Source: Candidatus Deferrimicrobiaceae bacterium (GTDB taxonomy: Bacteria; Desulfobacterota; Deferrimicrobia; Deferrimicrobiales; Deferrimicrobiaceae). Taken from it: a stretch of 64,000 nucleotides of DNA. The position numbers and the translations under genes are program-made. The notes under the pieces were generated by a model. It saw only the letters and a program-made list of their open reading frames with translations, did no database searches and was not told where the DNA came from. The stretch is taken from assembly GCA_036504035.1 (NCBI GenBank), contig DASXVV010000014.1, positions 248,001 through 312,000 of the forward strand. Reading direction: 5' to 3'. Shown here piece after piece: positions 46,067 through 50,930 of this stretch. The number at the start of each line of letters is the position of its first letter. Within the stretch, counting starts at the first letter, position 1.

Positions 46067-47129
46067 CGCACTTCCCGAGGAGCCGTTCCCGCTCGACGAA
46101 GAAAGCGCGTTGGCCGAGCCGATGGCTTCCGACGGCGCAGACGCGGGCGAGGGAGAGGGCGAGGGAGAGGCGGCCGAGTCCGTCGTACTCCTTGCCGAAT
46201 CCGACCTGGCCGGGCTCGCCGGAGGCGATGCGCCGCGCGAAGAGGCCGACGAGACGCTTCCCGAAGTCGCCGAGGAGGGCAGGGGGGCGGCCGAGCCGAT
46301 CGATATCGCCCGTTCCGCGGCCATCGTCGAGAGTCTCATGCTGATCAGCGCCCAGCCGCTGTCCTACGATCGGATCGGCAAGATCCTGGGCGGCTTTACG
46401 CGCGCCGACGTCCGCGCGGTTGTCGACGCGCTCAAGGCCAGGTATTCGCCCGCAAGCTCGGGAATCGTCGTCGAGGAGATCAACCGGGCCATCCAGTTCC
46501 GCACCAACCCGGCCAACCAGGAGTATGTCCGCAAGATGTTCGACGTCAAGCCGGTCCGCTTCTCGCGCGCCGCGCTCGAGACGCTGGCGATCATCGCCTA
46601 CCGGCAGCCGATCACGCGCCAGGAGATGGAAGAGATCCGCGGCGTCGATTGCGCGGGGGCGCTCAAGACGCTGATGGAGCGGCGGCTCGTTCGCGTGATG
46701 GGCAAGAAAAACGTCGCGGGCAAGCCGTTCATTTTCGGAACCACGCGCGAATTCATGGAAGTGTTCGGCCTGGGCACCATGTCCGACCTGCCGTCGCTGC
46801 GCGAGATCGAGGACTATCTCTCCAGCAAATCCGAAGAGCCGCAGCTGCCCGAGCTTCCCTTCCCGATGGACGAGAAGCGGGAAGCGGCCGAGCTGGCCGA
46901 TGCGCTCGATCAGTCGCGCCGCAACGCCGAAACGCTCGACGAGATGCGCGGGGCCTCCGGCGTGGCGGCCGAGGATGTGCTCGAAGAGGCCGCCATGAGC
47001 CGGGTCGGCGATCTGGACGACGGCATCGACGAGCTGGCCGAGATCGAGGCGGCCGAATCAGAGGACAGCGAACTGTCAGACGAGACCGACCCGCCGAGGG
47101 CGGGCGAAGGGGAGCCGAATGGCGACTGA
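46032..47129 (+). CDS. scpB: segregation and condensation protein B
   Basis: Partner of ScpA; dimeric winged-helix protein that bridges the kleisin. The family core runs from about residue 95 to 265 (IVESLMLISAQPLSYDRIG, ALETLAIIAYRQPITRQEME, GTTREFMEVFGL). Unusual are an acidic N-terminal extension of about 90 residues with a Gly-Glu repeat (46147-46172) and an acidic, Ala/Glu-rich C-terminal tail of about 95 residues. These make it 365 residues against roughly 190-200 for a plain ScpB. It overlaps scpA by 35 and rluB by 11 bases. Confidence 0.92.
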   Translation: MTKNPKRPTPTDALPEEPFPLDEESALAEPMASDGADAGEGEGEGEAAESVVLLAESDLAGLAGGDAPREEADETLPEVAEEGRGAAEPIDIARSAAIVESLMLISAQPLSYDRIGKILGGFTRADVRAVVDALKARYSPASSGIVVEEINRAIQFRTNPANQEYVRKMFDVKPVRFSRAALETLAIIAYRQPITRQEMEEIRGVDCAGALKTLMERRLVRVMGKKNVAGKPFIFGTTREFMEVFGLGTMSDLPSLREIEDYLSSKSEEPQLPELPFPMDEKREAAELADALDQSRRNAETLDEMRGASGVAAEDVLEEAAMSRVGDLDDGIDELAEIEAAESEDSELSDETDPPRAGEGEPNGD

Positions 47130-48255
47130 AGAACGGCTCAACAAATACATCGTCCTGGCGGCGGGGGTATCGCGGCGTGCCGCAGACGAAATGATCCGCG
47201 CGGGTCGCGTGACCGTCAACGGCAAGCTGTCGACCGACCCGGGCATGCTTTGGGTCCCGGGGCGCGACGAGGTGCGGCTCGACGGCCGCATGCTGGTCCC
47301 GGTCTCCGACGAGAAGATCTATGTCATGCTCCACAAGCCCGACAACGTGATGACCACGATGAAGGACAAGGAGGGGCGGGATACCGTCGCCTCGATGGTC
47401 GGCGCGCTCTCGACCCGCATCTTCCCCGTGGGGCGACTCGACTACCACACGACCGGGCTTCTGCTGCTGACCAACGACGGCGACCTGGCGTTCAAGCTGA
47501 CCCACCCGCGCTTCGGTGTCGAGAAGACGTACATCGCCAAGGTCATGGGGGTGCCCAACAGGGCCAGCCTCAACGTGCTGCGGAAGGGAATGGAGATCGA
47601 CGGAGAGACGACCAACCCGGCGTACATCACCTTCATCGAGCATCGCGAGGGGAAGGCATGGGTCTCCATCAAGATCGCCGAGGGCCGTTACCACCAGGTG
47701 CGCAAGATGTTCGACGCGATCGGCCACCGGGTAATGAAGCTGCGCCGCGTGGCGGTCGGCACGCTCGAGCTGGGCGGCCTCGATACGGGCGAGTGGCGCT
47801 ACCTGACCGGCAAGGAAGTCCGCGAGCTGCAGGCCTACGTGGAAGAGCGCGCGAAGGAAGCGAAGCTCGCCGGGCCGCCGGTCAAGCGTGCGGCGCATGT
47901 CAAGCGGGTCGAGACCATGGGCGAAAAGGCCCGCCTGCTCCAGAAGGCGACGGCCCCCAAGAAGGCGAAGCCCAAGGCCGCCGAGGCAGTCGACGAGGCG
48001 CCGGATAAAAAGAAGAAGGCCAAGCCGCGCAAGGCCGCAGGCCCGGTCAAGGGAATGAAGGCCGGCACGTTCGGCAAGCCGAAGCCGTCGTCGCGCAAGC
48101 CTGCTAAAGGCGCTCCGCGAAAGGGGAGCGCATCCGGAAGCGCCCGCGGCTGTGCCCGCGGCAGTGCCCGCGGCAGTGCTGCCAAGCCCAGGCGTGGTTC
48201 CGGTCCGGCCAAAGGGCCGTCCGCGCCCCGCAAACGGCGCTCATCGAACGACTGA
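47119..48255 (+). CDS. rluB: 23S rRNA pseudouridine synthase, RluB/RsuA family
   Basis: Isomerises a uridine in large-subunit rRNA (RluB modifies U2605 in E. coli). An S4 RNA-binding domain (LNKYIVLAAGVSRRAADEMI) is followed by the synthase domain with the catalytic Asp in GRLDYHTTGLLLLTNDG, and EGRYHQVRKMF. The 378-residue protein has a Lys/Ala/Pro/Arg-rich tail of about 120 residues, probably disordered RNA binding, containing a 12-bp triplicated repeat (48142-48177). It is the last gene of the trpS-scpA-scpB-rluB run and is convergent with a cytochrome gene 3 bases away. Confidence 0.93.
   Translation: MATEERLNKYIVLAAGVSRRAADEMIRAGRVTVNGKLSTDPGMLWVPGRDEVRLDGRMLVPVSDEKIYVMLHKPDNVMTTMKDKEGRDTVASMVGALSTRIFPVGRLDYHTTGLLLLTNDGDLAFKLTHPRFGVEKTYIAKVMGVPNRASLNVLRKGMEIDGETTNPAYITFIEHREGKAWVSIKIAEGRYHQVRKMFDAIGHRVMKLRRVAVGTLELGGLDTGEWRYLTGKEVRELQAYVEERAKEAKLAGPPVKRAAHVKRVETMGEKARLLQKATAPKKAKPKAAEAVDEAPDKKKKAKPRKAAGPVKGMKAGTFGKPKPSSRKPAKGAPRKGSASGSARGCARGSARGSAAKPRRGSGPAKGPSAPRKRRSSND
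48142..48177 (+). repeat. 12-bp tandem triplication in the rluB tail
   Basis: Three copies of GCCCGCGGC[A/T]GT stand head to tail in frame and encode the tetrapeptide Ala-Arg-Gly-Cys/Ser three times. It is likely a length-variable slippage tract in a disordered basic tail. Confidence 0.8.
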
Positions 48256-48258
48256 GCC

Positions 48259-48714
48259 TCAATAGTAGTCCTCGTGGCAGTCGGCGCAGAACGCGCTGAG
48301 ATCCACGTCGTTCCCGAAGAAGTTGACCTTCCGCACCATCTTGAAATCGGCGCCGACCGGCTTCAGATGGTAGTGGCACGTCGCGCAGGTGATCTTCCCC
48401 GCATACAACGGCAGCGTTTTCGGTCCATCGCACACCCGTTGGTTCCAGTTCCCGATTCCCGACGGATGGACAACCTGGCCGATGCCGAGCGCGCACGCCG
48501 TATCCGCATGGCACGTCTTGCATGTGGTGTCGATGGAATCCCGCAACAGCCGGAACTCCCCGAGCGCGATGTCGTCGGGAGAGGGGATGGCCACGTGGCA
48601 GTACGGGCAGAGGTCCATCGAGATGTGTGGATTGACGGGAGCGGATTCGACCGGGTTGGCAAGCGAGAGGCAGGCAAACAGGACCACGAGGGCGAAGCCG
48701 GGGTGGCGATACAT
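48259..48714 (-). CDS. periplasmic tetraheme c-type cytochrome (paralog 3)
   Basis: The 151-residue exported protein has a signal peptide (FALVVLFACLSLANPVESA) and four CxxCH heme sites: CPYCH, CKTCH, CATCH and CADCH. It shares a layout with the two upstream genes: mature N-terminus with NPHI before heme 1, GPKTLPL and then GKITCATCHYH before heme 3, KMVR, and the final FCADCH near the C-terminus. It should carry electrons in the periplasm, perhaps in respiration of extracellular or soluble acceptors. AAGGGG precedes its start. No recognised named family; close to single-gene tetraheme proteins of metal-respiring bacteria by layout only. Confidence 0.85.
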   Translation of the reverse strand: MYRHPGFALVVLFACLSLANPVESAPVNPHISMDLCPYCHVAIPSPDDIALGEFRLLRDSIDTTCKTCHADTACALGIGQVVHPSGIGNWNQRVCDGPKTLPLYAGKITCATCHYHLKPVGADFKMVRKVNFFGNDVDLSAFCADCHEDYY

Positions 48715-48785
48715 CTCGTTCCCCTTTCTGCCGGCAGGATGGGTGTCGGCCGCAGAAGGGTTGGTGAGAGTACGCCGGGTATTAC

Positions 48786-48820
48786 GTCTCTGGATACAGT
48801 ATACACCTCATGTCAGAGAC
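48786..48820 (-). promoter_or_regulatory. inverted repeat around a -10-like box upstream of a cytochrome gene
   Basis: GTCTCTG (48786-48792) and CAGAGAC (48814-48820) form a 7-bp inverted repeat spaced by 21 bases. On the minus strand a TATACT (48798-48803) lies between them, 84 bases before the cytochrome start. It could be an operator around a promoter, or a 3' hairpin of the gene at 48829. Confidence 0.35.
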
Positions 48821-48828
48821 AGGGGGAT

Positions 48829-49287
48829 TCAGCGGCCCGGGTGGCAGTCGGCGCAGAATTTCGTGAAATCGGGCCCCCCGTCGATGATCGCGACGTTGCG
48901 GACCATCTTGTAGTCGCCCCCTTCGGGCTTCATCCGGTAATGGCAGGTGGTGCAGGTGATCCGGCCGTCATTCAGCGGCAGGGTTTTGGGGCCTTGGCAG
49001 TTCCAGGTTTCCGCATCGGACAGGTGCTCGACCCGATTCGGGCCGAGGGCGCACACGACCTGCCGGTGGCAGCAGCGGCACGTCTCGTCGACCGTATCCC
49101 TGGTCAGACGGAAAACGCCGCACGCCGCGTCGTCGGTCACGGGAATCACGGTATGGCAGGAGAGGCAGCTCTCGCGGTCGGTCGAGGTGTGCGGGTTGCA
49201 GGTGACGGGCGCCGCCCAAACCTTGAAGGGAACGGCTGCGAGGAGGAGCGACGAAAGCAGACGCAGGGCGAGAGATCGGCAACGCAT
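48829..49287 (-). CDS. periplasmic tetraheme c-type cytochrome (paralog 2)
   Basis: A 152-residue exported protein with a signal peptide (ALRLLSSLLLAAVPFKVWA) and four heme motifs: CLSCH, CRCCH, CTTCH, CADCH. The NPHT segment before heme 1, GPKTLPL before heme 3, YKMVRN and FCADCH are shared with both neighbours, so the three genes arose by tandem duplication. An extra Cys (VTCNPH) and CNC-like Cys residues near the middle (ETWNCQG) distinguish it. It lies 114 bases upstream of paralog 3. Confidence 0.85.
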   Translation of the reverse strand: MRCRSLALRLLSSLLLAAVPFKVWAAPVTCNPHTSTDRESCLSCHTVIPVTDDAACGVFRLTRDTVDETCRCCHRQVVCALGPNRVEHLSDAETWNCQGPKTLPLNDGRITCTTCHYRMKPEGGDYKMVRNVAIIDGGPDFTKFCADCHPGR

Positions 49288-49413
49288 CGGATTCCCCTTT
49301 CCGTCGTCACGGGTTCGTGCCGGCTGTCGAAAGGTTGGCTTGGAGCAGGCAGAATCGACCGGTTCTCCATCATTGAATACTCCCCCGTCCTCGCCAAGGT
49401 TACCGCATGACGC

Positions 49414-49878
49414 TCACTTGTCGTCGTGGCAGTCCCGGCAAAGAGGGGACCACTCGATCTTCTCACCATCCCGGTGGACGATCCGAACCATCTTGTAGGA
49501 AGGCCCGTCGGGGATCGAATGAAAATGGCAGGTGTTGCAGGTGATGAACCCGTTCTGCAGCGGCAACGTTTTCGGCGACCGGAACCTCGTCTTGTCCCAG
49601 TGGTCGAATCCGCTCGGGTGGTTGAATGTGTGCAGGGCATTCATGTCGCAGCACACCTTGGGGTGGCACATGTGGCAGGTATCGTCGATCGTGTCCTTGA
49701 GCAGGTTAAGGTTGCCGGCCGCCCCTTCCTCCTTGGTCGGGACCTTCGAGTGGCAGCTTTCGCAACGCCCGGGCTTGATGTGGGGATTGATGACGGTCCC
49801 GGCCGCCCGAACGGGAGGGACGACGGGAAGCAGCAGGATGGACAGTGCGGCGAGCACAGGCAGACACCTTTGCGTCAT
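49414..49878 (-). CDS. periplasmic tetraheme c-type cytochrome (paralog 1)
   Basis: First gene of the cytochrome set, 154 residues from ATG 49876-49878, chosen because GGAGGG lies just upstream; a 15-residue longer frame lacks one. It has a signal peptide (LPVLAALSILLLPVVPPVRA) and four hemes (CESCH, CHMCH, CNTCH, CRDCH). NPHI, SPKTLPL, ITCNTCHFH and YKMVR follow the shared plan. It is the most divergent copy (CRDCH instead of CADCH and a longer, charged linker before heme 4). Co-expression with the other two is likely but gaps of 126 and 114 bases leave room for separate promoters. Confidence 0.85.
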   Translation of the reverse strand: MTQRCLPVLAALSILLLPVVPPVRAAGTVINPHIKPGRCESCHSKVPTKEEGAAGNLNLLKDTIDDTCHMCHPKVCCDMNALHTFNHPSGFDHWDKTRFRSPKTLPLQNGFITCNTCHFHSIPDGPSYKMVRIVHRDGEKIEWSPLCRDCHDDK

Positions 49879-49988
49879 GAGACCCTCCGAAAACCGAATT
49901 GGCTCACGTCGTTGCGGCGACAATTAGATAGCGATCGGGGGCATCGGGTTGCCGGTTCCGGATAAAAAAGTGTTCAAATCATCGGTAA

Positions 49989-50019
49989 TCGGGTCTGTGG
50001 GATGGTTATTCCGACCCGA
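49989..50019. repeat. inverted repeat between the cytochrome and tRNA genes
   Basis: TCGGGTC (49989-49995) and GACCCGA (50013-50019) are separated by 17 bases in the 197-base gap between the cytochrome start and tRNA-fMet. It might be an operator for the minus-strand cytochrome gene. Nothing else is evident apart from the tRNA promoter. Confidence 0.35.
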
Positions 50020-50032
50020 AGGGCGAAATCCC

Positions 50033-50062
50033 TTGACATCATGCCCGTCAAAACGATAGTAT
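50033..50062 (+). promoter_or_regulatory. sigma-70 promoter for tRNA-fMet
   Basis: A consensus TTGACA (50033-50038) and TAGTAT (50057-50062) are 18 bases apart and end 13 bases before the mature tRNA 5' end. Confidence 0.75.
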
Positions 50063-50075
50063 CTTAGGTTCACGG

Positions 50076-50152
<77 letters not shown>

Positions 50153-50161
50153 AAAAAGCAC

Positions 50162-50194
50162 AAGGGAATCGCAGAGATGCGGTTCCCTTTTTTT
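50162..50194 (+). terminator. intrinsic terminator of tRNA-fMet
   Basis: An 11-bp stem (AAGGGAATCGC with GCGGTTCCCTT, one G-T pair) closes a 6-base loop AGAGAT and runs into seven T residues. It starts 10 bases after the tRNA. Confidence 0.9.
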
Positions 50195-50540: not shown

Positions 50541-50930
50541 ATGTCCGAAAAAAGTATAGATCGTCATCCTGCCGTACCGTCGCAACTGGCGATGTTGCTG
50601 CCAGGGGTCTTGCTGATGTTTATCTGCTTTTCTTGGGGCTCCGCTCGGGCGTCGGACAACGTAGCTGTGCTTCGGCTGACCGTTGGCGAGATCATGGCCG
50701 AATCTCCATCCGCCGTGCAGAAACTGATCGGCGTGTACAGCCAAATCCCCGGTTTTCCTGCCGGCGGGAAGGCGGTCAAGCTCTACGTTTTCAGGGGGAC
50801 GGATGTGGTCTGCACCGCGCCCATCAAGGCAACGCAGAAGGACAAATTCGACTGCTGGCATTTCGACGATGCGCCAGGGCCGGTCCAGAAGCTGGTGAAC
50901 GAGAAGGACGCAGAGTTTAGCGAGAAATGA
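50541..50930 (+). CDS. small secreted protein of unknown function
   Basis: A 129-residue protein with a long N-region and signal peptide (AMLLPGVLLMFICFSWGSARA, cut near ASD). The mature part of about 90 residues has two Cys (VVCTAP and FDCWHFDD) that could form a disulfide, and LRLTVGEIMAE. GGAGGAGG precedes ATG 50541. I recognise no family. It lies between the toxin relic and the sulfur island and is followed by a GC-rich hairpin; no functional link to either is shown. Confidence 0.65.
   Translation: MSEKSIDRHPAVPSQLAMLLPGVLLMFICFSWGSARASDNVAVLRLTVGEIMAESPSAVQKLIGVYSQIPGFPAGGKAVKLYVFRGTDVVCTAPIKATQKDKFDCWHFDDAPGPVQKLVNEKDAEFSEK

Follow-up and report, generated by a model that had tools for sequence, protein, structure and literature searches.

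Three paralogous genes for putative tetraheme cytochromes in a Deferrimicrobiaceae bacterium: a small family without a name, probably of periplasmic electron carriers

What are the products of three small multiheme genes that lie side by side in the genome of a Candidatus Deferrimicrobiaceae bacterium, and do they belong to a cytochrome family that already has a name? We addressed this question in a 64,000-nucleotide stretch (contig DASXVV010000014.1, positions 248,001 to 312,000), referred to below as the window. An initial annotation had described a tandem of three paralogous tetraheme cytochromes there, and three paralogous genes with four CXXCH motifs each were indeed found at that place, all on the minus strand. 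With their neighbours they are:

47119-48255, plus strand: S4/pseudouridine synthase gene, rluB-like (Pfam PF00849 and PF01479)
48259-48714, minus strand: cytochrome A (subfamily II), 151 aa, four CXXCH, export signal judged by eye
48829-49287, minus strand: cytochrome B (subfamily II), 152 aa, four CXXCH, export signal judged by eye
49414-49878, minus strand: cytochrome C (subfamily I), 154 aa, four CXXCH, CC after heme 2, export signal judged by eye
50076-50152, plus strand: tRNA-Met (CAT), found by ARAGORN and Rfam

The nearest neighbours of the trio are housekeeping genes. The pseudouridine synthase gene converges on A at a distance of 3 bp, and the tRNA-Met gene points away from C, with 197 bp up to the start of C, which was taken as the ATG at 49878 (the mechanical open reading frame is longer and begins with the TTG at 49923). 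Within the trio, the genes are separated by 114 and 126 bp, and a purine-rich stretch resembling a Shine-Dalgarno sequence precedes each ATG (AAGGGGA in A and B, GGAGGG in C). A promoter scan of positions 48200-50180 gave two overlapping sigma-70-like matches, both on the plus strand and ahead of the tRNA; no terminators were found within the same interval. All three genes are open and all their heme motifs are intact. Among the 354 window ORFs of at least 60 aa, A, B and C are the only ones with any CXXCH, and four such motifs never arose by chance in 20000 residue shuffles of each protein. Mature chains of about 130 residues each are predicted, corresponding to a peptide of ~14-15 kDa and 32-33 residues per heme.

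Pairwise, the mature parts are 40-52% identical, which bears out the paralogy. The motifs NPH, PKTLPL, ITCxTCH, KMVR and a C-terminal CxDCH, which the initial annotation had listed, are present in all three proteins. Its longer form TCHxH, also ascribed to all three, holds for A and C but not for B, which reads TCHYR. Two further features are shared by the trio: a Cys five residues past the heme 2 His, and a His that stands before PS (A and C) or LS (B).

We compared the proteins with named cytochrome families. The earlier inability to place them persisted, as no family fits all three: no NCBIfam model reached its cut-off for A, B or C, and every Pfam model listed other than Cytochrome_C7 (PF14522) stayed under its cut-off. 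Cytochrome_C7 itself was barely passed, and by A and C only (25.5 bits each; B, 19.3 bits; cut-off 24.8), the best stretch in both covering hemes 3-4 only. Geobacter PpcA-E presumably belong to this Pfam family. Cytochromes c7 of the PpcA type have three hemes, all bis-His; with four CXXCH in each of A, B and C, and two spare His in B, the trio departs from this description. The class III cytochromes c3 are periplasmic and have four bis-His hemes. Our proteins resemble them in heme number, chain size and putative location, but PF02085 scored 12.4 bits against 22.9 for C and gave no match at E<=1 for A and B. Against the four distal His expected of a c3, spare His in the mature chain as cut number three in A and two in B, and seven in C (one of them inside a CXXCH). 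The soluble carrier CctA (STC) of Shewanella is likewise exported and has four hemes, but only C matches its model, and weakly (NF047727, 14.8 bits against 180; A and B, no match at E<=1). The remaining candidates were rejected on their scores: PF09699 (doubled CXXCH; A 17.7, B 19.4 and C 16.9 bits against 20.6), TIGR01905 (doubled CXXCH; at most 17 bits against 25.2), PF03264 (NapC/NirT; B 10.4 bits against 24.1, A and C no match at E<=1) and PF14537 (Cytochrom_c3_2; A 13 bits against 25, B and C no match at E<=1). In the literature, no publication about this family was found among the titles and opening abstract lines that the search returned.

A significant likeness was found in larger cytochromes, an example of which is encoded elsewhere in the same genome (G000):

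G000:C13:192306-193679: L005 (L101), a 15-heme ORF of four tandem tetraheme modules

A profile built from ten free-standing sequences matched four successive modules each in L005 and in relatives, L078, L071 and L074 (independent E from 1.3e-5 to 2.2e-13 for these 16 stretches), and three in the 12-heme ORF L006. The order within a module is NPH, CXXCH, CXXCH, HP, CXTCH, CXXCH, the same plan as in A, B and C. In L005, L078 and L071 the second unit is without the fourth heme, giving 4+3+4+4. The modules of these 12-15-heme proteins stand head to tail, the next NPH coming soon after the preceding last heme. L004 carries a single module followed by a C-terminal extension with a choice-of-anchor X match. 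By eye, the neighbours of L005 are an ABC-permease-like and a TPR-like ORF. Its relation to the DmsE family is distant (TIGR03508, 59.7 bits, far under the cut-off of 192.2).

Altogether 55 module stretches were collected, three from free-standing proteins (one of them a repeat of L014) and 52 from larger ones, among which L089 and L092 are the same protein twice. Of these 52, 36 were aligned and 16 left out, 13 with fewer than four CXXCH and three with four. The four CXXCH of the 36 modules are therefore there by construction, which does not apply to the HP His or to the absent Cys. The His of HP occurs in 48 of the 48 aligned units and that of NPH in 44, the remaining four being gapped there. 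Much of the non-heme plan of A, B and C is hence that of the tetraheme module. The shared plan noted before is thus present, but it is largely not private to the trio. What sets A, B and C apart from the modules, including those of L005 and, distantly, DmsE, is that they are free-standing and carry the extra Cys. A Cys within five residues after heme 2 was found in all 12 free-standing proteins and in none of the 36 selected modules; outside these 36 there is one exception, a 10-heme ORF of G094 (L015) with a Cys five residues after CXXCH in two places.

Structural comparison did not narrow the assignment. A phmmer search with C gave no PDB chain at E<=1, and the best hit of the free-standing profile was 6i5b_A at E 0.035. 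The 48-module profile matched 86 PDB sequences at E<=1, led by 6qvm_A (1.9e-12) and including 6i5b_A (3.3e-11, over positions 11-117 of 118) and MtrA (6r2q_A, 3.1e-9); NrfB, OmcS and OmcE were also among the best 60 of the 86. These matches may rest largely on CXXCH, and we take them to reflect kinship within the multiheme superfamily, or CXXCH spacing, but not a family assignment. AlphaFold2 gave a poor model with a 10-row alignment (mean pLDDT 40.9) and a low-confidence one of mature C with 48 rows (mean pLDDT 62.6, pTM 0.55). With the latter model, Foldseek returned 27 PDB matches at E<=10 and none at E<=0.001, and VIA, run against 46 chains, yielded a single row (MtrA 6r2q_A, Z 3.0, rmsd 4.8, 86 residues), which we treated as no result.

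We then asked how the locus looks in other genomes, defining the slot as the interval between the pseudouridine synthase and tRNA-Met genes. The synthase was matched in 15 of 24 family genomes (E<=1e-60), and both flanks were readable on one contig in 12, window included. Tetraheme genes occupied the slot in five of the 12: the window has three, while G002, G004, G008 and G012 have a single gene each, the last two also holding other DNA. The slot was bare in another five (G006, G010, G013, G019 and G021; 38-102 bp, no heme ORF) and filled with other DNA in G005, where it encodes a zinc-type dehydrogenase, and G014. In G002, which belongs to the genus of the window, the single gene lies in 705 bp with no room for a second; G001 also has a slot gene, its contig ending 301 bp beyond it. 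The window genome hence holds the largest tetraheme set at a place common to several genera. On a contig other than that of its slot gene, G008 has a second, broken tetraheme relative (G008:C180:2083-2505; L017, L069), in which an in-frame TAG precedes heme 2 and the heme-3 Cys is gone.

Similar integrase-like ORFs lie directly beyond tRNA-Met in G005 (L051:4370-5527) and G014 (L059:3036-4193), as judged by eye from their first 70 residues. This suggests that integration takes place at the tRNA-Met gene in the window's family; the ORFs stand on the side of the tRNA gene away from the cytochrome slot. In the window, a 129-aa ORF (50541-50930, plus strand) lies beyond tRNA-Met; by eye its N-terminus resembles a signal, and Pfam gave nothing at E<=1e-5. 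As to a mobile origin, tblastn of C found no matches in 72,556 plasmid records (E<=1e-5).

Strong matches in the own genome were limited to A, B and C themselves. A three-row profile (E<=1e-10) matched seven of 99 genomes, own genome counted. Six of them have free-standing genes, all within the window's family (f1); in the seventh, G094, the match lies inside a 14-heme ORF. Across the phylum, a ten-row profile (E<=1e-15) matched eight of 395 sampled genomes, six with free-standing genes (G000, G002, G004, G012, G150 and G261) and two with larger ORFs (G094 and G162). When a species-wide collection was scanned with C as the sole query, a search confined to close relatives, L007 (bin582) and L008 (Desulfobulbaceae UBA5123) were added. 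On the genomes sampled, the free-standing family is rare and scattered.

In a tree of 11 rows, A, B and the G001 and G002 proteins, the two others from the genus of the window, formed one side and C with all remaining rows the other (support 99/97). The tree is unrooted apart from a midpoint root, five of its eight inner branches were drawn open, and the free-standing L024 was kept out as a long branch; when three module rows were added as outgroup, the split between A/B and C was not recovered. C shares 62-65% identity with slot proteins from three other genera and 40-42% with A and B; A shares 71% with the G001 protein and 52% with B. Since C groups with the slot genes of those three genera and with proteins from other families, we read it, on the midpoint root, as the older type and A/B as a younger pair that would have arisen at genus level. 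The paralogues do stand in tandem, but the tandem triplication proposed earlier is too simple an account of them. By a simple Nei-Gojobori count with dS near 1, dN/dS was 0.18-0.19 in three close pairs and ~0.19 for A against the G001 gene, and 0.43 and 0.58 for the paralogue pairs A-B and A-C, respectively. A is under purifying selection.

What might such proteins do? Small, apparently exported tetraheme proteins without linked enzymes point to carriers, and we consider that A, B and C are probably soluble periplasmic tetraheme c-type cytochromes that shuttle electrons, free-standing copies of the tetraheme module of this lineage in which heme ligation would be tuned or mixed. They would be exported and have their hemes attached, and each would be reduced by a membrane quinol oxidoreductase or by a further cytochrome and would in turn reduce multiheme partners in the periplasm or outer membrane. 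Having diverged, the three carriers would differ from one another in potential and in docking surface, as PpcA-E do in Geobacter. In published work, the triheme Ppc paralogues of Geobacter, one to six per genome, are described as periplasmic carriers (PMC12977616, PMC10954620), all of PpcA-E can hand electrons to OmcS (PMC10954620), and the paralogues are not resolved by sequence alone (PMC12977616). The likeness lies in small periplasmic multiheme proteins occurring as diverged paralogues in one genome; in contrast to PpcA-E, our proteins have four hemes and not three, their fit to PF14522 is at best marginal, and A and B are short of His.

In favour of carriers, the own genome is rich in multiheme ORFs (~45 distinct open frames at E<=0.1, trio counted, some perhaps by chance), several genera retain the gene at the same slot, dN/dS is low in the close pairs, and the module is repeated in L005, L078, L071, L074 and L006. 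However, presence is patchy (five of the 12 family genomes in which the slot could be read), and neither the extra Cys nor the scarcity of distal His is what one would expect of a common bis-His shuttle. A search for partners also counts against a shuttle: nothing recurs among nine neighbours at four loci outside the window's family, namely metW, Usp and a cation ATPase (L008), a xanthine/uracil-type permease and an iron-type dehydrogenase (L007), CysZ/EI24 and Sua5 (L034), and RNase HII and a carbon-nitrogen hydrolase (L033). Moreover, the role could be filled instead by other small cytochromes, for example the 171-aa ORF L116 (G000:C6:239196-239525), which has five CXXCH and a lipobox-like LSSC. 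Elsewhere in G000, a 939-aa ORF with 30 CXXCH (G000:C13:27062-29881; L100:15063-17882) lies near 12-heme and 5-heme ORFs in a multiheme cluster.

The heme ligands bear most directly on other readings. Two spare His, H10 and H64 in the numbering of mature C, occur in all 12 free-standing proteins; a third, H97 of TCHxH, occurs in ten and is missing from B and the G002 protein. The Met of KMVR is found in nine of the 12, and the mature parts of A and B contain two and five other Cys, respectively. Four spare His are needed if every heme is to be bis-His, so that, going by these counts, A as a monomer must have at least one heme, and B at least two, with a non-His distal ligand or none. A second subunit may supply the distal ligand for both.

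Such hemes, open or bound by Cys or Met, could bind NO, nitrite, sulfide or thiosulfate, in which case B, or all three proteins, would be a small heme enzyme or sensor. The shortfall of His in A and B, the two invariant spare His with the loss of the third in B and the G002 protein, and the extra Cys of all free-standing members would fit this idea, and published work on TsdA provides a precedent for Cys-ligated hemes acting on thiosulfate. We nevertheless think it unlikely. A Cys within five residues of the heme 2 proximal His could hardly reach the distal face, the spare Cys may form disulfides and a second subunit may contribute the missing ligand; spare His are more numerous in C and in most proteins of subfamily I, and no enzyme-like partner was seen among the neighbours scanned. 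For a related proposal our expectation is similarly low: a family of mixed ligation whose paralogues differ in the number of spare distal His but keep the Cys beside heme 2, and in which one or two Cys-, Met- or un-ligated hemes would form a reaction or sensing site and the trio would be graded from carrier (C) to ligand-binding protein (B).

It is improbable that the trio consists of redundant copies that are decaying and have no separate roles. The patchy presence across genomes, the broken copy in G008 and the higher dN/dS of A-B and A-C than of the close pairs would suit such a course, but all three window genes are intact, every heme motif is kept, and A has the low dN/dS given above against its G001 counterpart. 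Very improbable is a row of polymerised or docked proteins, nanowire-like or filling a conduit, in which the terminal heme of one protein would meet its neighbour's NPH end, like successive modules in the 15-heme proteins: the head-to-tail modules speak for it, but there is no evidence of polymerisation, the module profile matches the OmcS and OmcE chains only in part, and the low-confidence model gave no fold match.

We conclude that A, B and C represent a real, conserved small family without a name, of an ordinary kind but with two unusual features. That kind of protein is already familiar. Small periplasmic multiheme carriers, as which we read the trio, are a common missing link in the electron routes that are drawn from the genomes of uncultured bacteria, and the fixed slot and the diagnostic Cys are handles for telling members of this family apart. 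The shortage of distal His in B, finally, makes a definite spectroscopic prediction.
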